From contig NZ_JNUP01000047.1 of the NCBI RefSeq assembly GCF_000758165.1, positions 1 through 64,000 of the forward strand: a stretch of 64,000 nt of DNA, read 5' to 3'. The position numbers were made by a program, and so were the translations under genes. Source of the stretch: Spirochaeta lutea (GTDB lineage: Bacteria > Spirochaetota > Spirochaetia > DSM-27196 > Salinispiraceae). Positions 3-11,711 of the stretch are shown here, piece by piece (positions within the stretch are counted from its first letter, which is position 1; every line of letters begins with the position of its first letter). The notes beneath the pieces are model-generated. The model made no database searches, was not told where the DNA came from, and saw nothing but the letters and a program-made list of their open reading frames with translations.

Positions 3-1205
3 TTAAGCAACCTTTTTTCTGTAAATTTCTTTAAAAGCAGGGCGATCATTAGACTCGGGTAAGTACCGTTTTTCATTCTGCCATTGATCGTTCTGTTCGA
101 TCAGCATGGCCGCCGCAAGGCGAAGCAAACTATCGGCATTAGGGAATACGCCTACGACCTTTGTTCGCCTTTTTATTTCTTTCATTTGACGTTCAGCCAA
201 ATTTGAGGTTCGTAACTTCCTCCTGTGGTTTTCCGGGATATGAAATACGCTTAATCCCTCCCGGAGATTTTCATCAGCCCACTGGGCAAGACGGGGCTGG
301 GTCTTCTCATACTTTTCTACCAGGCTCTGCAAGTACCTTTCGGCGTTCTGTTCATCTGGGGCATTGAAAACCTTGCGGATTTCCGCCGCTACCGCCGGGA
401 CATCGTCTTTCCTTGTCACGTAACCACGAGCATTTTGCTGCAAGTGAAATTGACACCGTTGCCACAAGATTCCAGGAAACACAGCATCGATAGCTGCTCG
501 AAGACCCGCATGGTCATCACTGGTAATCATGGTCAGACCATGGAGCCCTCTACGAACCAGGCCTTCTAGAAACGATCGCCAATTTACCTCCGCTTCGCTA
601 TTGGCTACTTCTGTGCCCAAAATCTGACGTTTGCCTTCATAATCGACGCCTATGGCCATCAGTAGGGACTGTTTGACCACTTTCGAGCCTACACGCACTG
701 ATTCATATGTAGCGTCGAGCACGAGATACTGTATTTGTCCTACCGGCGAGGATCGCCAGGATGTTGCCTCTTCATCCAGCTCCTTCGCCAATCGACTTAC
801 CTGTGAGGAGCTCACCTCGGTGCCGCATAGGATTTCTACGATATCTGAAACCCGTCTAGTACTGACCCCTTTTACGTACATCTCGGCTATCGCAAGTTTT
901 AAGGCTCGTTCACTCCGAATACCCTTTTCGATACAGCTGGGATAGAATTCCAGTCCGCGGACTTGAGGTATCTTGAGTAATACCTTCCCGGTAGCCAAAG
1001 CCAAGGTTTTGTTCTTAAACCCGTTGGCGTAGCCCATTCGATCTTCGGTCCGCTCATAGGGTTCGGCCTGAAGGGTTTTGGCTCGCTCAAGTTTCATTGC
1101 TTCGTTCACTACCTTTTCTATCACCTTAGAAAATTTACTGTCTTCCTTGGTGGCTAACATTTGGATCACTTGCTCTAAAAGTGTATACTCTGATTGGTAG
1201 GCCAT
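3..1205 (-). CDS. IS256-family (mutator-type) transposase
   Basis: DDE transposase that catalyses cut-and-paste or copy-out movement of its own element. The 400-residue protein has the family layout. The first catalytic Asp is in QYLVLDATYESVR, the second in MITSDDHAGLRAAI followed by the conserved WQRCQFHLQQN block, and the Glu region is in RTSNLAERQMKEIKRRTK. I chose the ATG at 1205 (protein starts MAYQSEY) because AGGAGA lies a few bases upstream. A longer frame reaches 1241 without a better ribosome site. The gene is full length and ends at 3, so the element may be active. No frameshift is visible. Confidence 0.92.
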   Translation of the reverse strand: MAYQSEYTLLEQVIQMLATKEDSKFSKVIEKVVNEAMKLERAKTLQAEPYERTEDRMGYANGFKNKTLALATGKVLLKIPQVRGLEFYPSCIEKGIRSERALKLAIAEMYVKGVSTRRVSDIVEILCGTEVSSSQVSRLAKELDEEATSWRSSPVGQIQYLVLDATYESVRVGSKVVKQSLLMAIGVDYEGKRQILGTEVANSEAEVNWRSFLEGLVRRGLHGLTMITSDDHAGLRAAIDAVFPGILWQRCQFHLQQNARGYVTRKDDVPAVAAEIRKVFNAPDEQNAERYLQSLVEKYEKTQPRLAQWADENLREGLSVFHIPENHRRKLRTSNLAERQMKEIKRRTKVVGVFPNADSLLRLAAAMLIEQNDQWQNEKRYLPESNDRPAFKEIYRKKVA

Positions 1206-1272
1206 CGGGCTCTCCTTATGGTTTGTTTCGTCACTTACCATTTGAGCCTGATCGGCCTGCTTTCTTCAACCT

Positions 1273-1522: not shown

Positions 1523-2944
1523 TCATCCAGGTTTCTCTGCAAGTTTGGTTGGCGCATCAATCATCGATTCTCGATATAACGTCCAGATTTCAAGCTCTGA
1601 AAGGAACACCTCATAATCAATTTCAGCCTGTTGAATTCGATCGCGATATAATTGGGCGTAGGTGTAATCACCCTGAGACGCTGATTCCTCCAACGACCGT
1701 AATCTTTCGGCGTTTCTTGATTGCAGTTCCAGGAGCGCCTTATACCGATGGATCGCGTGTTGGTATTCATGCTCCCTGACAACCCTGCTTTCTGAGATCC
1801 GCTCCTGCTCAGCTCTATACTCGTGAAAAACCAACCTCTCCTCCCAATTAAGATCCAACACATCCATACGCCGTCGTCGGTCCCAGGGGGTCCAAGCCAG
1901 GGAAACGCTCAGAATCAGGGGCTCGTACCAGAGTTCCGGCGCGATTCCCTTCCAACTATCACCGTACCCGGTACCCGCAACTGAAAAAGCATTGCTGGAA
2001 AGGGAATACCCTAGGGTGATCTCGACAATGGGACTGGAATATCGCTTAGCCTCTAAGCCCTGGTTTAAAACCCGTTGAACTCCTAACCGAGAAAGCGCCA
2101 ACCGAATTTCATCACTCCTCCGTTCGAATCCTGGTTTGTAATACCCCCCCGGGTTATCAGCTATACGAGGTATTATCCGGAGAAACTCCTCAAACCCAAT
2201 ACGGCGGAACAGCCCTTCACTCTGGAGATAGGCGAATAGGCTGTGATACTCTCGGTTTAACGTGAGGGTCTCAAGCTCAAGTCGCAGCAGTTCCTGACGG
2301 ATCGCCTCCAAGTTGACCCGGGATGATCCCAGGTCAGCTTGCTTCTCTTCACCGACTTCAATCTCTTGGATCAGGGTTCGCTGCCTCTCTAAATACGCAG
2401 TGCGTTCAGATACGATACACCATTGTTGAAACACCCCAAGACAGTCTAGTTGATCCTGGATTGAATCAAGCCCAGCAGAGAGGTTTAATTGATCCCCTCT
2501 ATATAGGGACTGCCGCTGGGATTCTCCCAGACGGTATGCTCCGGCAAACTGGAGGGGTTGAGTCCAGGAAAAATCACAGCTAATTTCCTGATAAAACCCT
2601 CCTTCCTGGTCCGGTCCGGGCAAGGTGATGCCGCTGCTGTGGGAAAGTGTCCCCGTTATTTTTCCTCCGAAGGGGAGATCAATCTGGGAAGAAACACTAC
2701 CCTTTAGAATGATGTCCCCGGGCAGATACCCACTCCAGGCGGAGATGGGGGATAGGGTCAGTGAAGTACTTCTTAAGCCGAATCTCGGAATTGCGTTTAG
2801 TCTTGCGGCATTTGCTTGGGATGCCCGCATTCTTACCCCTTGTGTCGTGAGGCTTTCCTGTTGCCAAATTTCCCAAAAGGTTTCCCAAGTCATAGCCGAA
2901 CAGGGAAATGTAATGCAGAACCAGCATAGAATTATTTTTTTCAT
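1523..2944 (-). CDS. TolC-family outer-membrane channel of the type I export system
   Basis: Predicted outer-membrane exit duct for the exporter encoded just upstream. It is 473 residues long. A short signal peptide (MKKIILCWFCITFPCSA) is followed by a mature part with alternating helical and beta stretches. Two long heptad-like helical blocks (about residues 160-240 and 375-455) fit the TolC alpha-barrel. Sequence identity to a named TolC is not obvious, so the family call rests on length, architecture and position. The ATG overlaps the adaptor stop as ATGA, implying translational coupling. Base composition is A+T-richer than the rest of the window. Confidence 0.75.
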   Translation of the reverse strand: MKKIILCWFCITFPCSAMTWETFWEIWQQESLTTQGVRMRASQANAARLNAIPRFGLRSTSLTLSPISAWSGYLPGDIILKGSVSSQIDLPFGGKITGTLSHSSGITLPGPDQEGGFYQEISCDFSWTQPLQFAGAYRLGESQRQSLYRGDQLNLSAGLDSIQDQLDCLGVFQQWCIVSERTAYLERQRTLIQEIEVGEEKQADLGSSRVNLEAIRQELLRLELETLTLNREYHSLFAYLQSEGLFRRIGFEEFLRIIPRIADNPGGYYKPGFERRSDEIRLALSRLGVQRVLNQGLEAKRYSSPIVEITLGYSLSSNAFSVAGTGYGDSWKGIAPELWYEPLILSVSLAWTPWDRRRRMDVLDLNWEERLVFHEYRAEQERISESRVVREHEYQHAIHRYKALLELQSRNAERLRSLEESASQGDYTYAQLYRDRIQQAEIDYEVFLSELEIWTLYRESMIDAPTKLAEKPG

Positions 2945-4080
2945 ACCCAGTCCAAGACTTCTAAAATGAAATGAATAATTTTCCGTCGTTGCAGAATAAT
3001 TCTAGCCTCCCCGATAATTCCCGGCGGAATCGGAATCTCAGAGGAGGACTCCCTATGCTTTACAAGAGATGGGATTTCAGCTTCCAAAAAATATACAGGC
3101 TCTCCGGCATGGGTATGGGAAGAATCTGCAGGAATGGTAACCACGGTACCAACAATCGGCTCATATTCATTTATTGGCAGAGACTCAAAATGGATAATCA
3201 CCTTCATTCCCGGCTGTATAGAGACAATCTCTGCTGGAGTAACCTGAATTTGAACCTTTAGAACCCCAGCTATTCCAGGTACCAATTCAAGCAGGGGTTG
3301 ATGGAGAGCTACCCGATCCCCAGGGTTGAGTTTAAGCATATTATGTACGCGTCCGGTAATGGATGCAGGGATGTTTGCTTCGTTTACCTGCTTCTCCAGA
3401 AATGCGATTTTGGCTTGGAGAGATCCTACCTCTTCCTGGGTGTTCTGAATAATCTGGGTAGCCTGGAGAATCCGCTGATGTTCCCATCGGAGCAGATCAA
3501 GACTCAGTTGTTCTCGCTGTAACTCCAACCGTCTGATGGTAACCATACTTTGAAGGAGTTGCGGTTTTTCCATCTCGATCGAGAGTTCATATTCAATGGT
3601 TCGGATTCCATGGGTACGGAGACGCTTTTCTGCATTGAAATCCTCCCAAAGCACCTGTTCATAGCCCCCGCCTAGATATTGAGGAGCTGCGATTCCGCTC
3701 AGGCTATGGAGAAGCACCTGATTAGCATACAAATTCTCAAAGGCAGTCTTGAGCCGCGGTTTTAACTCATTCAGTTGAATCTGCTGCTCTGTAATATTCA
3801 TGGTGACTAGTATCTCTCCGGCCTCAACCAAATCCCCGTCCTTGACATGCACAGTCTGTACAATCCCTGAGGATCCCGGCGAGATAAGACTTGGATTTGC
3901 TACTGGACGGGTTTCTGCAATCCCGTATGCAACATCTTCTACCGAAAATAGGAAAGACCAACCCAAAAGCGACAAACAGAACAAGCAGATTAATAGAATG
4001 CCGACCCTGCAGATGATGGGCCTTGAAAGCTCATAAAATTCTCGGCTATGTTTTATGACATCACCAGAGAGAATGTTCAT
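2941..4080 (-). CDS. HlyD-family periplasmic adaptor (membrane fusion protein)
   Basis: Links the inner-membrane ABC exporter to the outer-membrane channel. The 379 residues contain one N-terminal membrane helix (about residues 24-47), a first half-lipoyl segment (SSGIVQTVHVKDGDLVEAG, ~70-90), a long coiled-coil hairpin (~95-235), the returning lipoyl half (ASITGRVHNMLKLNPGDRV, ~237-255) and a C-terminal beta-barrel region. This is the order seen in bacteriocin-type accessory proteins such as LcnD/CvaA. It starts with an ATGA overlap on the ABC gene stop and ends with an ATGA overlap on the TolC-like gene. All three are therefore one translation-coupled export cassette. Confidence 0.88.
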   Translation of the reverse strand: MNILSGDVIKHSREFYELSRPIICRVGILLICLFCLSLLGWSFLFSVEDVAYGIAETRPVANPSLISPGSSGIVQTVHVKDGDLVEAGEILVTMNITEQQIQLNELKPRLKTAFENLYANQVLLHSLSGIAAPQYLGGGYEQVLWEDFNAEKRLRTHGIRTIEYELSIEMEKPQLLQSMVTIRRLELQREQLSLDLLRWEHQRILQATQIIQNTQEEVGSLQAKIAFLEKQVNEANIPASITGRVHNMLKLNPGDRVALHQPLLELVPGIAGVLKVQIQVTPAEIVSIQPGMKVIIHFESLPINEYEPIVGTVVTIPADSSHTHAGEPVYFLEAEIPSLVKHRESSSEIPIPPGIIGEARIILQRRKIIHFILEVLDWV

Positions 4081-6299
4081 TGGTCGTCCTCACCCTCAAC
4101 CCCTGAAGTAATGGTGACCTGTTTCTGGCACTCCCATAACCGTCGGTACTGCCCCCCTGGTTTTTGTAGAAGCTCTTGGTGTGTTCCGGTCTCTTGTACC
4201 CTACCATTTTCTAACACAACTATCCGGTTACAGTTCTGTACGGTAGTGAGCCGATGAGCAATAATCAAAATGGTAGTACCTACATGACGTAATCCTTCAA
4301 GGAACATCTGAAATCCCGATTCAGTTTTGGTGTCCAGGGCGCTGGTTGCCTCATCTAGGATTAAGAGCCGGGGCTTCCGTATCAACGCCCGGGCAATCGC
4401 CAGCCGCTGCCGCTCCCCGCCGGATAATTTCGCACCACGGTCCCCGACCTCGGTAGCGAATCCATCAGGCAATCCTTGAATGAAGGGTAAGGCCTGAGCC
4501 ATAGTACAGGCATAGAGCACATCGCTGATATGGGGCTTTTCTAAGCCGATGATGAGATTATCCATAATCGTACCGGAGAACAGCATCGGATCCTGGGGCA
4601 CATATCCGATTTGCCTACGTAGTCCTTGGGAGTCAAAAAGTCGACTGTCCCGTCCGTCAAATAGCAGTGTTCCCTGGGAGGGCGTGTACATCGTAAGAAT
4701 GAGTTTGACGAGGGTGGACTTACCGCTCCCGCTCTGTCCCACAATTCCGACAGTTTCACCAGATTCAATTTCCAAGGAAAAATTCTGCAATGCAATATTT
4801 TTCACCCCATAGGAGAAGGATACATTTCTAAATGAGATCGCACCGAAAAGGGTTTCTGACTCGGAGATTGGCGAAGGAGGATTCCCAGATACCATGGGTC
4901 TTTTCCGCCGTATCTCCTTCTCGTCTGGGAGCTCCAGGATGGAAAGCAGTCGTCTAGCAGCAACATTTGCACCCTGCAACTGAGGTTGAAGCAGAAGTAA
5001 CCGCTTAATTGGCCCGATAAAATATCCCAGTAAAGCATTGAAACTAATGAGCTGGCCAATGGATATCCGCCCCTGAAGGATTAACCATCCACCTACCCAA
5101 AATAAGAGAACCTGTGAAACAGCCTCAATAGCCCCCAATAACCCTCCTTGGGTTATACCCAGTACATCAAGGGTGAATTCCTGTTTTAATGACGCCAACA
5201 CCCGTTGTTCTGCTTGCTCATACATGGGGTCTTCATAACCGAAGGCTTTAATGTGAAAAATACCGGATAAACTCTCCACCAAGTGGGTATGCTGAGCTGC
5301 ATGAAGGGACATGGCTCTGGTATTATTTCGGGTGAAGGGCTTTCGATACAGAATTACAACCAGGGCAAAAAACGGAAGGGATGAGACACTGAGCAGGGTG
5401 AGCAAAGGGCTTTGAAGGAACAGGAATATCCCAACTCCCAGGATCATCAAGCTGTCAATACATGCAGATAGGGTCAGTCCGGACAACACCTCCCGTATTT
5501 TGCGTCCATCCTCCAATCGGGTTAGTATCTCGCCGACCCTCCGCTTATCAAAAAAAGACTGGGGCAGAAATAGAACCTTTTTGAAATATAGCAGGGCAAT
5601 AGAAAGATCCACCCTGCTCCCCAGATGGCTCAGCGTGTATTGACGGATCCCATTGAGGATATTCTGAACCAACACCAGAACAATCATACCCCCGGAGACT
5701 ATATGAAGGGTCCGTTGCATATGACCACCGACAACCGAGTCAATGATGAATCGGATGTATAGGAATTGAGTAATACCGAAGAGTATCAAGGCAAAGGAGG
5801 CAATAAACACCTCCACAAACTCGCGTTTGAAAGGTTTCAGAAGAGACATGAACGCTATCAGAGGAGTTGAGGCTTTCCCCTTGGCAATGAAGTTTGGGCC
5901 CGGTGCAAGAATAATGAATGACCCGGTCCATATGGCTGAAAGCTCCTCCATGGATAGCTTCTTCACACCTTCGGCTGGATCTGCTACCCGTATCGAACCC
6001 TTGGATATTCTCAGAACAACCATAAAGTGGAACTGCTCTCCCTGTTGTACATGGAGGATGGCAGGCATCGGAGTGTGGCTCGGCAGTCTCTTATCCTGGG
6101 AGAACAGCGCGTGGGCGGTGAACCCTAACACCTGGGCAGCCTGGAGCATACCGGCAAAACTAGTGCCCTGGGTATTGGTACCGGCAATTTCACGGATCAT
6201 CCCTATACTAGCAGAAAGTTTGTAGTATTTGGAAATCATCGCCAAACAGGCTGCACCGCAGTCCGTTTCATCAAGTTGAGAAATAAATCGTAACCCCAC
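4077..6299 (-). CDS. Peptidase-containing ABC exporter (C39 peptidase, membrane and ATPase domains)
   Basis: Inner-membrane transporter that cleaves double-glycine leaders and pumps the cargo out. It has 740 residues and starts with GTG at 6299 after AGGGAGGG. Residues 1-125 form a C39 cysteine peptidase with all key residues present: oxyanion Gln8, catalytic Cys14 (ETDCGAACLAM), His91 (EQFHFMVV) and Asp107 (RVADPAEG). A six-helix ABC membrane domain follows (~150-430). The ATPase carries Walker A GQSGSGKST, signature LSGGERQ, Walker B LLILDEATSAL and the switch IIAHRLTT. Because the peptidase triad is intact, a substrate with a cleavable Gly-Gly leader is expected. One is encoded upstream at 8804-10015. 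Confidence 0.95.
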   Translation of the reverse strand: MGLRFISQLDETDCGAACLAMISKYYKLSASIGMIREIAGTNTQGTSFAGMLQAAQVLGFTAHALFSQDKRLPSHTPMPAILHVQQGEQFHFMVVLRISKGSIRVADPAEGVKKLSMEELSAIWTGSFIILAPGPNFIAKGKASTPLIAFMSLLKPFKREFVEVFIASFALILFGITQFLYIRFIIDSVVGGHMQRTLHIVSGGMIVLVLVQNILNGIRQYTLSHLGSRVDLSIALLYFKKVLFLPQSFFDKRRVGEILTRLEDGRKIREVLSGLTLSACIDSLMILGVGIFLFLQSPLLTLLSVSSLPFFALVVILYRKPFTRNNTRAMSLHAAQHTHLVESLSGIFHIKAFGYEDPMYEQAEQRVLASLKQEFTLDVLGITQGGLLGAIEAVSQVLLFWVGGWLILQGRISIGQLISFNALLGYFIGPIKRLLLLQPQLQGANVAARRLLSILELPDEKEIRRKRPMVSGNPPSPISESETLFGAISFRNVSFSYGVKNIALQNFSLEIESGETVGIVGQSGSGKSTLVKLILTMYTPSQGTLLFDGRDSRLFDSQGLRRQIGYVPQDPMLFSGTIMDNLIIGLEKPHISDVLYACTMAQALPFIQGLPDGFATEVGDRGAKLSGGERQRLAIARALIRKPRLLILDEATSALDTKTESGFQMFLEGLRHVGTTILIIAHRLTTVQNCNRIVVLENGRVQETGTHQELLQKPGGQYRRLWECQKQVTITSGVEGEDDQ

Positions 6300-6383
6300 C
6301 CTGTTCCCTCCCTGCTCATCCTCATACAGCCTGGTTTATTCCCTGGTCGTCATCGGACCAGGAGTTCCCGTCTATACAATGGT

Positions 6384-7556
6384 CTATTGGGAGAACTGTT
6401 CCATTATGTCGCGGACATAGATGATTTCACCAGCCCGATTGAGAAAAGCCCACCCATCTCGGGTGCCCGTGGAGTAATCTTTTTCCATTATGGAAACCCA
6501 CCCGTGTTTATAGACGGAAGGGTAGCCGCCGAAGGTATCGTAAATTTCATTGGTAAAGATGAATCCTTCCGGTAGATACTGGACAATCTGTCCGGACGTG
6601 TCCCAGAACCCTAGAATTAACTCTCCGTTCACCGAACCCTGAAAACTTGCGACCCCTTCCTCAAAAGCACCGCCGATGGCAGAAAAAGGAGAAAGAAACC
6701 CCCGGCTTCCGTCCCGATGCAAATAGAGAGTTCTGGAATTCCAGGGCTGGGGGGCAACTCGGTCCGTACTTCCTATTGCATAGACATAGCCGTCACCGCT
6801 GACCCTCTGGCTGTTCATGAACCAACGTTCGCCAGGCAGGCGATCACGTATCAGCTTGGGATGAAAACGGATGACAACCTCTCCCCGCGTATCAATGAAG
6901 TAGGTGAAGGTATCCTGCTTTACCTGAGCCAGTCCAAGATGAAAATCTTCAGCTTCATCCCATACGGGCTCAATGGCCCACTGCCCCGCAGGGTTCAAAA
7001 ATCCCACCGAATTCCCATACTTAACTCCCACTGCCAACCCCTCGCTGAAGGGCTGGATGTGAAACAGCGCATTCATTTTGATGAGTTCTCCCGATCTGTT
7101 CATTAAAACATGATGTTCGGGGAAAAAGGGCTTTGCTGTACCGGCCACACCCTGGGAAAATTCCGTAGTCGACCGATCAAACTCCCTTTGAAAGACATCC
7201 TGCCCATTCAAATCAAGAAAAACCACCTTATCGTCGAACATTGATCCATAATCGCGAATGAGCCTGCACAACCCGTCGGAGGGAGGATCAAGCCGCTCTC
7301 CCTGCACCTGAAATACCACCTGACCCCTTGAGTCCAATAGTTGCCATGTTTTTCCATCAGGCAGCAAAGCGCTTAGGTATCCTTCCCTGGGGTAACTGAG
7401 TTCCGCATATCTCGGCTCAATAATAAGGGTCAAATTCTGATCTAAAAGCCCGACCCTATTGTTGTAAAAAAACCGATGATAGCTTCGCTCTGCATCCTGG
7501 GTGAAGATGCTCTGCACCCCGAGAAAAACCAGCAGCAGTACGAGCAGATTTTTCAT
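6384..7556 (-). CDS. Secreted WG-repeat protein, paralogue 2
   Basis: The protein has a cleavable-looking signal peptide (MKNLLVLLLVFLGVQSIFTQ) and about 370 mature residues built of WG-type (KWG-like) beta repeats, recognisable as GLLDQNLTLIIEPRYAEL, GFLNPAGQWAIEPVWDEA and GWAFLNRAGEIIY. It is a close paralogue of the next upstream gene along its full length: NSQRVSGDGYVYAIGSTDR here corresponds to NSRKVSGDGYVYALGTTDR there. I prefer the second of two nearby ATGs (7556) because AAGGAG is 8 nt away. WG repeats are usually protein-interaction surfaces. A role as immunity protein, chaperone or receptor for the exported cargo is inference from position only. Confidence 0.85.
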   Translation of the reverse strand: MKNLLVLLLVFLGVQSIFTQDAERSYHRFFYNNRVGLLDQNLTLIIEPRYAELSYPREGYLSALLPDGKTWQLLDSRGQVVFQVQGERLDPPSDGLCRLIRDYGSMFDDKVVFLDLNGQDVFQREFDRSTTEFSQGVAGTAKPFFPEHHVLMNRSGELIKMNALFHIQPFSEGLAVGVKYGNSVGFLNPAGQWAIEPVWDEAEDFHLGLAQVKQDTFTYFIDTRGEVVIRFHPKLIRDRLPGERWFMNSQRVSGDGYVYAIGSTDRVAPQPWNSRTLYLHRDGSRGFLSPFSAIGGAFEEGVASFQGSVNGELILGFWDTSGQIVQYLPEGFIFTNEIYDTFGGYPSVYKHGWVSIMEKDYSTGTRDGWAFLNRAGEIIYVRDIMEQFSQ

Positions 7557-7622
7557 ACGCATCTCTCCTTCTTGTTTCTAGTGTTTAGAGGATTGATCCA
7601 GACAAGCAATGCGAGTTCATTG

Positions 7623-8807
7623 TCACTGTTCACCGGATTCCTTATTGCGGTAGTACTGATCCATGATGTCGCGGACATAGATCACCTCATCTTCCTTGTT
7701 GAGAAAGGCCCAACCCTCCCAGGTGCCTGTTCGATAGTCCTTTTCCATTATGGGAACCCATCCATTCTGGTAGTTGGATTTGTAGTCGCCAAAACTATCA
7801 AACACTTCATCAACAAAGATGAATCCCTCGGGTAAGACCTGGACTATCTGACCGGTGGTATCCCAGAACCCCCGGGTAAGCTCCCCATCTACCATGCCGG
7901 TAAAACTTGCGACACCCTCCTCAAAGTCTCCTCCTATGGCGAAGAAGGAAGACATGAAAACTTGGCTGCCGTCTCGGTAGTAGTAGAGGGTTCTGGTATT
8001 CCAGGGTTGGGGTGCTGCCCTATCGGTGGTTCCCAGAGCATATACGTAGCCGTCTCCGCTGACCTTACGGCTATTCATGAACCAGTTCTCGTATGGAAGA
8101 TCATCAATATGCTTAGGGTTTAAATCTATTACCGGTTCACCCTGGTGATTGATAAAGTAGGTGTAATCAAAGCGGTGAACCAGAGCTAACCCGTTATGGA
8201 AATCCCCAATCTCCGTCCATTCCGGCCGGATGGCCCATCGCCCTTGGGCATCTAAGAACCCAGCCCAATTCTCAGGAGTAACCGCAGCTGCCAAACCCTC
8301 CTGAAAAGGCCGGATCTCCAGCATGGGTCTCATCTTCAGGTAGGTCCCCTGGAGGTTAATAAGTGTGTATTGTTCACTATCAACGGGGCTGCTCACCGGG
8401 GCAAGCCCGTTCCCGAAGGGTCTGGCCGATGGGTACTGCACCCCGAAGGGGTTCCGGCCTTCCAATGTCAGAAATTCAGCATACCGTTGTTTACCCACAC
8501 CTAGGTTAAAAATAGCGAGAGAAAGGTCATCCCGGACTGGATACAGCCGGATGGCATCAACCTCAAATAAGGTCTGACCATCCAGGGTCACCACACCCCA
8601 GGTGGTGTCATTGAGTCGGTAAGTGCAATATCCCTCACTGGGTAGACTCAGCTCCTGATACAGGGGTTCCAGTACTACCTGGAGGTGCTGGTCTAGCAGT
8701 CCGGTCTTACCCATATAATAAAACCGGTGGTAATCCCCCTCAGCTGTATCCGGGAATACTCCCTGTAATCCGAAAACAATCCAGAATATAAACAGTATGG
8801 TCTTCAT
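7623..8807 (-). CDS. Secreted WG-repeat protein, paralogue 1
   Basis: It has 394 residues with an N-terminal signal peptide (MKTILFIFWIVFGLQGVFP). A series of ~35-residue WG-type repeats follows, including GLLDQHLQVVLEPLYQEL, GFLDAQGRWAIRPEWTEI, YFINHQGEPVIDLNP and GWAFLNKEDEVIYVRDIM. No catalytic motif is visible. Its ATG overlaps the stop of the cargo gene as ATGA, so the two are translated together. Tight coupling of a toxin-like enzyme to a periplasm-directed partner is typical of effector-immunity pairs, but no homology to a known immunity family is evident. The tandem copy 60 bp downstream suggests gene duplication with divergence. Confidence 0.85.
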   Translation of the reverse strand: MKTILFIFWIVFGLQGVFPDTAEGDYHRFYYMGKTGLLDQHLQVVLEPLYQELSLPSEGYCTYRLNDTTWGVVTLDGQTLFEVDAIRLYPVRDDLSLAIFNLGVGKQRYAEFLTLEGRNPFGVQYPSARPFGNGLAPVSSPVDSEQYTLINLQGTYLKMRPMLEIRPFQEGLAAAVTPENWAGFLDAQGRWAIRPEWTEIGDFHNGLALVHRFDYTYFINHQGEPVIDLNPKHIDDLPYENWFMNSRKVSGDGYVYALGTTDRAAPQPWNTRTLYYYRDGSQVFMSSFFAIGGDFEEGVASFTGMVDGELTRGFWDTTGQIVQVLPEGFIFVDEVFDSFGDYKSNYQNGWVPIMEKDYRTGTWEGWAFLNKEDEVIYVRDIMDQYYRNKESGEQ

Positions 8808-10015
8808 GGCCTGTTATTTCCCCGGATCGGCACTGATGGATCCCAAAAGTCGAAGTCCTGCCAGTTTAGGCCCCCACGCTGCCATGACCGCTTCATCTCA
8901 CTCAGGCTGGAATAAACCTCCACATGCTGTCCACGATCACGCGAGGGACTATCGTACATGTACCCGAAGGCCGCAACGAGAACCGATCCGTCCCTGTTTA
9001 CCCGGATAGCGGCCGCATGACCACTAGCACCCTTTGTTGGATCGGTCGCCAGGACAACATTCCATTTTCCGACAGCAGGTTTTGAACGTAGGGCATTTTC
9101 AGCATCAAGGTAGGCTTCATGACCTTCAACGGTGTATGTCTCAGCACTCCCCCAAATATCCTTGATAGGAATCTTGACTACCTCTTTGAAAAACTCTTCA
9201 ACATAATTATCGCATCGATGCAGTGCCGGGTCCCAGGTTGAGGCCTCACTATCCAGGTGAAATTCTCTTATCTGGTGAACAACACTCCTTACCTCATAGG
9301 TGTAGGGTAAAGTGTGCTGCATGGGCATGTTCAGCTCTCTTCGTCGTTGGTTTTCCCTTGCAATTAAAAGCCGTTCCTGTTCAGGGGTTAATTCTTCGGG
9401 ACGTTTCCTACTCCCCGTTTCCGGCAAAGTCGGAGAGAAATCCTTCGTTTTGGTTTTGACGCCGGTGGTATAGCCTGTTTTTTGGGGCTTGGGGGATTTA
9501 GTACCCCCTGAGGTTGGACTCGAACCGCTTAGGTCTTTCTTTTTATCCTGAGCGGCTGCCTGGCTGGTGGGTGAGGTTTTATTCGGTCTCGCCTTGCCTC
9601 CGGCAATCGCGGTTGAGGTAGGTTTATTTTTCGTCTTGGGCGGGGGAACGGATCGAACTGCGTAGGGATTTGTCTTTGTTTTTGAGGTCGTCGCAGCCAT
9701 GGTTTTGGTCGGAGTGGTTTTTGCTTTGGGCCCAGGACCGGCGCTTGCTCCGGGATCCTTCTTGGGGACTTGAGGTTTCTGTGATTTAGTACCACCGTTG
9801 TTTGCCTTTGTACGGATTTGTTGCATTTTGGTTACGGATGTGGGCCGAGATGCTGTTGAGTAGCTGGAAGGTGAAGTACGGGCAGGGGTGGTTTTACTGG
9901 TAGAAGTCCGGTTGTAGGTTGATGGGTTTCCGTATCCGCCTCCCCAGGTCATGAGCTGTTCAGGGGTAAGCTCAGTAATACCCTCAAGTTCTAACTGGGA
10001 TCCGAAGTACTTCAT
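8804..10015 (-). CDS. Exported effector: double-glycine leader, Thr/Ser/Lys/Pro linker, cysteine-peptidase-like domain
   Basis: Proposed cargo of the C39 exporter. The protein has 403 residues and starts at 10015 after AGGAGG at ideal spacing. Residues 1-27 look like a double-glycine leader: ELTPEQLMTWGGG places Leu16 at -12, Leu21 at -7 and Gly26-Gly27 at -2/-1. Residues ~30-205 are a low-complexity Thr/Ser/Lys/Pro/Ala linker. Residues ~206-403 form a folded domain with the only cysteine of the protein, Cys268 (HRCDNYVEEFFKEV), and His333 (GASGHAAAIRVNRDGS). That spacing and context resemble CHAP/NlpC-P60-type cysteine amidases or peptidases. The substrate is unknown and peptidoglycan is a guess. 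The gene overlaps the upstream glycosyltransferase by 32 bp and the WG gene by 4 bp. Confidence 0.8.
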   Translation of the reverse strand: MKYFGSQLELEGITELTPEQLMTWGGGYGNPSTYNRTSTSKTTPARTSPSSYSTASRPTSVTKMQQIRTKANNGGTKSQKPQVPKKDPGASAGPGPKAKTTPTKTMAATTSKTKTNPYAVRSVPPPKTKNKPTSTAIAGGKARPNKTSPTSQAAAQDKKKDLSGSSPTSGGTKSPKPQKTGYTTGVKTKTKDFSPTLPETGSRKRPEELTPEQERLLIARENQRRRELNMPMQHTLPYTYEVRSVVHQIREFHLDSEASTWDPALHRCDNYVEEFFKEVVKIPIKDIWGSAETYTVEGHEAYLDAENALRSKPAVGKWNVVLATDPTKGASGHAAAIRVNRDGSVLVAAFGYMYDSPSRDRGQHVEVYSSLSEMKRSWQRGGLNWQDFDFWDPSVPIRGNNRP

Positions 10016-11711
10016 GGAGTGCTTCCTCCTTTTTTATTGTCTGACCGAAGTCAGGGGTACAGGGGTGTTGTTTCTGTAGTGCAACCAGAATCAGAATCTC
10101 CATGTTCTGGAGGGTGATGGAGTGATGAAGGGTGAATCCGGGCAACCCGGTGAGAACCTCCTCGGTCGACTCGATCTGCCAACGCTGTCCAGTAAGCCGT
10201 GGTCCACGGAGGAGTCCAAGTATTATCGTCCGGGCTCCGGAGGTTGCAATCTGATTCAAGGCGGTGTGGATGTCAGTAGCGTATTCCAGCCACCCGAGGA
10301 TGATAATTTGGAACACATCGGGATGATAGACTTGGAGGGTCTCTAAGCAGGCGGCTTCAGCACTTACCTGCAGGGTATACTCCGGGTAGCTATCCAGTAG
10401 CTCATCGCCAGCCCAATCGGCACCCCAAATGAGGGCGGGGATGTCGTTATCTACCCACGGAAGAAGCTGCCGCAGCAACTCAGCTAATTCCGTTCTGGTT
10501 GGGTGTTGCGGGGGTAGCGAGGGCAGGCCAGCCTGGGCTGATAGATGGAGATTGGGAGCTAATCCATTGAGGACGGCCTTGTACATCCGAAGATGCTCCG
10601 ATCCCGCCCGTTGCCAAGACCATTTTTGGGTATCCTCAATGCCTTGAAGTATGAGGGGGCGGAGGGCTGACCAGTTGGAAAGGACATAGTACAAGGTAGT
10701 CGCTACCGATTCGGCTGTACTGGCAATTGCTATCCCGTTTTTGCCGGGTTCAAAGTACTCATCCATTCCGAGGCCGGGGGGAGCCATGAGCAAGCAGCCA
10801 TGCATCAATGCTTCAAGACCAACCAACCCAAAGGGCTCATACCGGCTGGGCATGATCACAACATCCGCCTCCTGGTAGGCTTTTTCTCGAGCGGAGCCGT
10901 GGACGAAGCCCATGAATGATACTCGGGGGTAGGCGTCCTCGGGAGGAGGCGGCCCGAACCCGTAGACCCGAAACTGCAGCTCCTCAGAATGATCCGGCCA
11001 CCGGTTACAGAAGCCGGAGACACCCTGGAGGTAGGCGTCAAGTCCCTTCTGTTTCGAATCCAAGCGTCCGAAGAAGCTGATGACCCGGGGAATCGATCGC
11101 GGCTTTGTTTTGAGAACCCCAGCCTCACAGGGTACTGCGCCCAGGGGCATGATGACAGCCCGGGCATTCGGAGAGATGGCGTTTTGCAGTCGCTTCCGGC
11201 TGAAAGCCGAGTACACCAGGGTGAGGGTGGCGTGTTCGGCGGCACAACGGTCAATCTTGAGCTCCTGCATCCATTGATCATCCAGGAGTGCCATACCTGA
11301 GAGATCAGGCATAGAGAGATGCAGGGAAAAAACCACATTGGGCATACAGTGGAAGGGCATATAGGTTTGCCGGTCATTACAGTGAATAATGTCTGGACAA
11401 AACTCCTGAAATACCGGAATCATCCGGGAAAGCAGGGAGAAGCCTGCTTCAAGCACCTCTCCCTCGGGGGTGAAGGTGGGAAAAACCGGTCTGCATGCAA
11501 CATGGAAGTCTATGAACCCCGAGGGAGGAGGCCCCTCCGTCTCGCAGCTTGGGTCGGTATAATCCAGGAGAAGGATCTTTACCTGATGGCCGAGGTGCCG
11601 GAGAGCTTGGGTCAGCTCTCTGACAAACTCCCCCAGACCGCCGATCTGCCGGCCGGGGTCTTCGGTGGTGACCATGAGTATACGCAGTGGTTTGCGGGGT
11701 TCTAGGCTCAT
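9984..11711 (-). CDS. GT4/GT5-type glycosyltransferase with a C-terminal methyltransferase-like domain
   Basis: GT-B fold transferase of 575 residues. N-terminal signature IGGLGEFVRELTQALRHLG (~23-41) resembles glycogen-synthase-type enzymes. The C-terminal half has FFGRLDSKQKGLDAY and the donor-site EX7E block in PSRYEPFGLVGLEALMHG. The last ~170 residues form a second domain whose late part (VFQIIILGWLEYATDIHTAL) recalls a class I methyltransferase, though the usual SAM glycine motif is not clear. Its 3' end carries the ribosome site and start of the cargo gene, so both are coupled. Modification of the Thr/Ser-rich cargo linker is plausible by analogy with glycocin clusters but unproven. 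The start has only a weak ribosome site. Confidence 0.82.
   Translation of the reverse strand: MSLEPRKPLRILMVTTEDPGRQIGGLGEFVRELTQALRHLGHQVKILLLDYTDPSCETEGPPPSGFIDFHVACRPVFPTFTPEGEVLEAGFSLLSRMIPVFQEFCPDIIHCNDRQTYMPFHCMPNVVFSLHLSMPDLSGMALLDDQWMQELKIDRCAAEHATLTLVYSAFSRKRLQNAISPNARAVIMPLGAVPCEAGVLKTKPRSIPRVISFFGRLDSKQKGLDAYLQGVSGFCNRWPDHSEELQFRVYGFGPPPPEDAYPRVSFMGFVHGSAREKAYQEADVVIMPSRYEPFGLVGLEALMHGCLLMAPPGLGMDEYFEPGKNGIAIASTAESVATTLYYVLSNWSALRPLILQGIEDTQKWSWQRAGSEHLRMYKAVLNGLAPNLHLSAQAGLPSLPPQHPTRTELAELLRQLLPWVDNDIPALIWGADWAGDELLDSYPEYTLQVSAEAACLETLQVYHPDVFQIIILGWLEYATDIHTALNQIATSGARTIILGLLRGPRLTGQRWQIESTEEVLTGLPGFTLHHSITLQNMEILILVALQKQHPCTPDFGQTIKKEEALHEVLRIPVRT

Follow-up and report, generated by a model that had tools for sequence, protein, structure and literature searches.

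A candidate polymorphic toxin-immunity cassette within a C39-type secretion operon of Spirochaeta lutea

Introduction

What does a C39 peptidase-ATP-binding cassette (C39-ABC) exporter with an adaptor and an outer-membrane channel of its own send out of the cell, when the double-glycine leader in its operon is carried by a protein of 403 residues? The question is raised by seven genes of Spirochaeta lutea, all on the minus strand at 1523-11711 of the window, which is the 64,000-nucleotide stretch analysed here (RefSeq assembly GCF_000758165.1, positions 1 to 64,000 of the 72.6-kb contig NZ_JNUP01000047.1, in a genome of 3.5 Mb). Read from the 5' end, they encode a glycosyltransferase (GT), the double-glycine protein (called the toxin below), two WG-repeat proteins (WG1 and WG2), the C39-ABC exporter, an HlyD-type adaptor and a TolC-like channel. 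The first-pass annotation, made from the sequence without database searches, had described seven co-oriented genes with one 32-bp and three ATGA overlaps, and their coordinates, strand and overlaps were all found again. It regarded them as a dedicated secretion operon for a large double-glycine substrate with an associated glycosyltransferase, which the comparison with other genomes supports. Its exported 'enzyme' of 403 residues holds as a large double-glycine substrate, but the polymorphic-toxin nature of this cargo and the probable immunity role of the WG proteins were missed. From the sequence comparisons, the locus is best read as a type I secretion operon of the C39 kind (class II microcin-like) that includes a polymorphic toxin-immunity cassette, and we consider it quite probable that a toxin-immunity cassette is exported here by the adjoining machine.

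Results

The putative toxin domain is carried by several delivery modules

A search of 393 genomes of the phylum found the C-terminal domain of the toxin elsewhere, and a profile built from three members (the window, L002/L021 and L004/L020) then found more loci, taken with their flanks; with all profile matches counted, 18 spirochaete genes have the domain. In both L002/L021, where the domain belongs to a tandem array and follows another double-glycine leader, and L004/L020, where it forms the end of an RHS protein, a WG-repeat protein is encoded next. The double-glycine leader is joined to the domain in the window, in L021 (three genes, one paralogue having its leader in a separate upstream open reading frame), in L026 and in L028; the RHS-borne form was found in L020, L025, L116, L117 and L118 (RHS judged by eye from repeat motifs). 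The domain also sits on a gp19 tail tube in L023 (Pfam E 2.5e-34) and on an extracellular contractile injection system (eCIS) core in L115 (E 1.8e-27). In L022 it is preceded by a signal peptide and a double-glycine leader and neighbours an isolated C39 peptidase, and four loci (L024, L027, L079, L119) have other or incomplete N-termini. One C-terminal domain on a double-glycine leader, RHS, a gp19 tail tube and an eCIS core is the arrangement by which polymorphic toxins are recognised. Three further candidates, L003, L014/L029 and L015, were rated as chance matches owing to internal stops, or to weak or short matches.

These carriers bear on a different reading, in which the exported protein is a housekeeping or nutritional cysteine peptidase or amidase whose substrate is the producer's cell wall or lies in the environment, with the WG proteins as wall-associated partners or as chaperones of the periplasm. 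NlpC/P60-like enzymes, which the domain resembles (see below), often serve cell-wall maintenance, and another CHAP/NlpC protein, similar in these residues, is encoded elsewhere on the chromosome. However, the domain is rare and patchy (14 of 375 genomes of the class), lies in cassette arrays, is fused to RHS, tail-tube and eCIS modules and has swapped downstream partners, a pattern not expected of a housekeeping enzyme, and we regard this reading as very improbable.

Two of the loci show further features. At L023:8633-17598 (G157), the toxin domains at the C-termini of T4 gp19-type tail-tube proteins are the present domain, NlpC/P60 and an M23 peptidase recognised by eye. After each of these proteins a different small exported protein is encoded, and they may represent the tube cargo of a contractile injection system. 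At L022:8556-9823 (G371), a toxin with both a Sec signal and a double-glycine leader adjoins the C39 peptidase that lacks an ABC part, and it might be processed outside the cytoplasm.

WG-repeat proteins accompany the domain

The gene that follows the domain encodes a WG protein in 13 of the 18 cases (the window, L020, the first of L021, L023, L025, L026, L027, L028, L079, L115, L116, L117 and L118), and all 13 neighbours score above the Pfam cut-off; the toxin of L079 escaped the first profile, and an extended one recognised it (E 3e-15). In the seven genomes with the pairing, every WG gene (11/11) lies directly 3' of the domain or is second in a tandem pair. Were the genes placed at random, the probability of this outcome would be about 1e-22, a coarse estimate made on the assumptions of independence and a density of one gene per kilobase. 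The pairing was repeated in all four of the strong held-out loci L115-L118, which were found only afterwards, and is absent from L119, the weakest of the later matches. G297 and G371 have the domain with another neighbour, and neither genome contains a WG gene.

Signal peptides or lipobox motifs were read by eye at the start of the WG neighbours and point to an envelope location. In the window, WG1 (7623..8807, minus strand; Pfam WG_beta_rep, 68 bits) and its paralogue WG2 (6384..7562, minus strand; Pfam) both have signal peptides and are 53% identical overall; their divergence is mosaic, the identity being 41% between the N parts and 71% between the C parts. That the WG proteins are further cargo of the exporter was considered and rejected, since they bear signal sequences of the Sec type and come after the toxin domain whatever the exporter. 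They might also be accessories of the toxin, namely a chaperone, an adaptor or a co-exported partner: their genes follow the toxin gene, the products are Sec-exported, there are two copies in the window, and a domain-specific chaperone is compatible with the data. The WG genes, however, accompany the domain whether a C39 exporter, RHS, a tail tube or eCIS delivers it, which ties them to the toxin domain and not to an exporter, and some toxin genes have other partners, as replaceable immunity families would lead one to expect. An accessory role therefore appears unlikely to us, and WG1 and WG2 are probably the immunity proteins of the toxin, WG2 being the second.

Leader, linker and C-terminal domain of the putative toxin

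The toxin gene (8804..10015, minus strand) was recognised by its leader and by domain homology, and no close relative of the whole protein was found in the genome contig scan, the C-terminal domain alone being shared. The leader (residues 1-27, 9935..10015, minus strand), ELTPEQLMTWGGG, was aligned with the homologous leader ELTDEELFLVNGG and others of its type, which places the double glycine at Gly26-Gly27 and the predicted cleavage site after Gly27; cleavage after the first Gly-Gly pair was rejected because the homologous leaders align to Gly26-Gly27. The predicted mature toxin has 376 aa, 41.3 kDa and a pI of 9.9, and its first residue, Tyr28, agrees with the GG/Y start (the stroke marks the cut) of 10 other larger cargos from GT-bearing loci. 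Behind the leader lies a basic linker rich in Ser, Thr, Lys and Pro (residues 28-234, 9314..9934, minus strand; pI 10.8), whose first 30 residues are 50% Ser+Thr and which is a candidate region for glycosylation.

The C-terminal domain (residues 235-403, 8807..9313, minus strand) has C268, D269, H299 and H333 (window numbering) near-invariant across 11 aligned members, and C268 is the sole cysteine of the window toxin. In hhalign, the alignment matched that of seven spirochaete NlpC/P60-CHAP proteins with 78.5% probability (P 1.7e-5), a remote similarity in which Cys and His are superposed, and five control alignments gave 0.2% or less. A PDB sequence search with the domain gave nothing significant. 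Sibling cargos in related arrays bear M15 peptidase or NlpC/P60 peptidoglycan-hydrolase domains, which makes peptidoglycan a common target in these arrays, and an attack on peptidoglycan by the present toxin is the somewhat favoured possibility.

The export machine

The exporter gene (4077..6299, minus strand) has a GTG start, and its product was identified by Pfam, NCBIfam and PDB matches. Its score of 551 bits exceeds the 524 that NCBIfam sets as cut-off for ABC transporters of peptide cleavage/export. Among solved structures PCAT1 (4ry2) comes closest, with a full-length match at E 4e-164, and C14, H91 and D107 are present, in agreement with the intact catalytic residues of the first-pass annotation. 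Its C39 domain is the only one of the genome. The adaptor (2941..4080, minus strand) matches HlyD_3 (E 9e-11) above the Pfam cut-off, as do the WG proteins for WG_beta_rep. For the toxin and the TolC-like protein (1523..2944, minus strand), a Pfam search of each gave no match of its own; the channel is identified by its place after HlyD, as in homologous loci, and by distant similarity to OEP, which matches two of five aligned counterparts, and a PDB sequence search with the TolC-like family gave nothing significant. Other OEP proteins of the genome are encoded elsewhere, so the operon channel is an additional one. The operon thus combines an intact Cys/His/Asp peptidase fused to ABC, HlyD, a TolC-like protein and a double-glycine cargo, as C39 type I secretion would have it.

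A glycosyltransferase kept with the exporter

The first gene of the operon (9984..11711, minus strand) encodes an enzyme that matches GT4 families (Pfam Glyco_trans_1_4, E 9e-19) and whose C-terminal part resembles a degenerate methyltransferase; the homologue in G130 matches Methyltransf_11 above the cut-off. At E < 1e-20 the GT was found in seven genomes including the window's own, always in a C39-ABC/HlyD/TolC locus or one with double-glycine cargo, and in the six others (G130, G285, G200, G194, G259, G206) it shares its locus with C39-ABC, HlyD and TolC-like genes. The gene set, of which the first-pass annotation had asked whether its homologues might never occur together, therefore recurs in six other genomes. 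Double-glycine cargo with variable C-termini is present in five of these six; at the G130 locus no such cargo is visible, and a BAAT-type hydrolase lipoprotein is encoded between GT and exporter.

The cargos of GT-bearing loci range in length from 95-141 aa in the microcin-like products of L041 to 166-403 aa in the larger ones. Each of the 11 distinct larger cargos has Tyr after the leader and 24-49% Ser+Thr across the next 45 residues, and this start, GG/Y with a stretch rich in Ser, Thr, Gly and Tyr, is a candidate glycosylation target. In the cargo tails of the GT-less loci L026 and L028, Ser+Thr is mostly below 20% (range 3-33%). These features suggest that the GT modifies the Ser/Thr-rich stretch behind the leader, and we put glycosylation of the cargo at slightly short of an even chance. 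It is also possible, if rather doubtful, that the enzyme serves to build a surface polysaccharide, leaves the toxin unmodified and adjoins it for some unrelated reason. Polysaccharide synthesis is a common task of GT4 enzymes, and L026 is a double-glycine array with no GT nearby. Yet all seven GT genomes keep the gene in an exporter or double-glycine cargo locus, the end of the GT gene overlaps the toxin start in the window, and the larger cargos share the start just described, albeit in a small sample and with the microcin-like G285 cargo lacking it.

At L041:3038-10207 (G285), the microcin-like double-glycine cargo of 95-141 aa and an Rce1-like membrane protein are encoded after two genes for glycosyltransferases. 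L040:10541-18734 (G130) has the same machine and GT with the BAAT/acyl-hydrolase lipoprotein and is bordered by IS256-type transposases on both sides. In L021:146-7833 (G194), transposase genes split the TolC-like and C39-ABC genes, and many cargo cassettes persist.

Composition and surroundings of the operon

The GT and toxin genes overlap by 32 bp, three further junctions overlap as ATGA, and gaps of 60 and 84 bp separate WG1, WG2 and the exporter. The G+C content is 0.557 in the GT gene and 0.46-0.51 in the six downstream genes, against 0.575 for the remaining window. On its 3' side the operon is followed by an intact IS256-type element, which has terminal repeats of 15 nt (13-27 and 1273-1287) and encodes an IS256-family transposase (3..1241, minus strand; NCBIfam NF033543, 342 bits). 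A promoter scan gave 11 matches against 10.5 in shuffles, i.e., no excess, and a terminator scan 17 against 11.6 +/- 3.4. Mobility, which had been proposed from the lower G+C, is plausible in view of this composition and the adjoining element, but the search of plasmids for the toxin and for the GT found no copy. A search of viral contigs with two alignments revealed no relatives.

Discussion

Our results point to the following course of events. The toxin would be made with a 27-residue double-glycine leader, which the C39 domain of the exporter would cut after Gly27, and the ABC part, HlyD and the operon's own TolC-like channel would carry the 41-kDa product out in one step. Before export, the GT4 enzyme may modify the region after the leader that is rich in Ser, Thr and Tyr. 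Outside, the NlpC/P60-like Cys/His domain may hit an envelope target of rivals, most likely peptidoglycan, and both Sec-exported WG proteins may stay in the envelope of the producer and block the toxin there.

Several points weigh against this reading. The support comes from genome comparison, and the passage of the toxin across the outer membrane of a rival is a gap in the proposed mechanism. The similarity to NlpC/P60 is remote (78% probability), single-protein Pfam matches of the domain to NlpC/P60 are weak, and the window domain has no Pfam match. AlphaFold gave unusable models (pLDDT 36 for the toxin domain from a two-sequence alignment and 42 for WG1). In view of a profile match and two poor models, we call the domain NlpC/P60-like and not a proven member of that family. 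Five of the 18 toxin-domain genes have a neighbour other than WG, and WG repeats occur in 108 of the 393 genomes of the phylum; the immunity claim is therefore restricted to the toxin-paired subset, and the family does not serve immunity only. Finally, the double-glycine proteins of Treponema denticola showed no killing in supernatant assays (PMC11879956).

The T. denticola proteins belong to one of the closest known systems. They have 607-614 aa, are encoded beside C39-ABC/HlyD and exported lipoprotein genes, and were found in the culture supernatant (PMC11879956). The first-pass annotation knew of no described system with this gene set and took C39 exporters to process short peptides normally; the T. 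denticola report shows that large cargo as such is not unprecedented. Both spirochaete systems share C39-ABC and HlyD, large double-glycine proteins and exported proteins encoded alongside, but no toxin domain, glycosyltransferase or dedicated TolC is reported for T. denticola, whose lipoproteins are not described as WG or immunity proteins (the two were compared by description). In the openly licensed PMC subset we found no description of such large double-glycine proteins as polymorphic toxins or with the glycosyltransferase, and no paper linking WG repeats with immunity.

We tentatively propose, with confidence clearly below even, that the spirochaete C39 double-glycine machine with its own GT is a route for an entire class of enzymatic toxins that are large, glycosylated and variable at the C-terminus, and that WG proteins form a family conferring immunity in the envelope to one of the toxin domains. 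If so, an export route would be added to the trafficking modes of the 2012 survey of polymorphic toxins, the division of type I systems into those for large cargo and those for small C39 cargo would be blurred, some WG-repeat proteins would receive a first specific role, immunity, and the large double-glycine proteins secreted by T. denticola would have a plausible function.

That survey (Zhang et al. 2012, PMC3482391) lists the routes T2SS, T5SS and T6SS (type II, V and VI secretion systems), PVC, T7SS (type VII), TcdB/TcaC, PrsW and MuF. Swappable C-terminal domains, varied trafficking modules and adjoining immunity genes are common to its toxins, which include papain-like domains, and to the present ones, but the survey has no C39/double-glycine route and 'WG repeat' is unmatched in its text. 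PCAT1 (PDB 4ry2) is homologous to the operon exporter over the full length; its entry is described as a bacteriocin transporter, with adaptor and channel outside the entry, whereas the operon has both genes. The class II microcin systems (MccV, MccPDI; PMC10231218, PMC5311971) share a leader cut by C39-ABC, an HlyD-type protein, TolC and an adjoining immunity gene. Their cargo is non-enzymatic and below about 10 kDa, a size that the predicted 41.3-kDa mature toxin, with its probable enzymatic domain, its own TolC-like gene and its glycosyltransferase, exceeds, although the related L041 carries cargo of 95-141 aa; in a paper of 2023, type I systems fall into two groups, one for cargo > 50 kDa and the C39 type for cargo < 10 kDa (PMC10231218). 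Glycocins (PMC12457901, PMC8620827) likewise cluster a glycosyltransferase and C39-type leader processing with the cargo, but theirs are small glycopeptides, whereas the S. lutea operon joins a GT4-type enzyme to a large toxin whose glycosylation is suggested by co-occurrence and by the Ser/Thr-rich stretch behind its leader.
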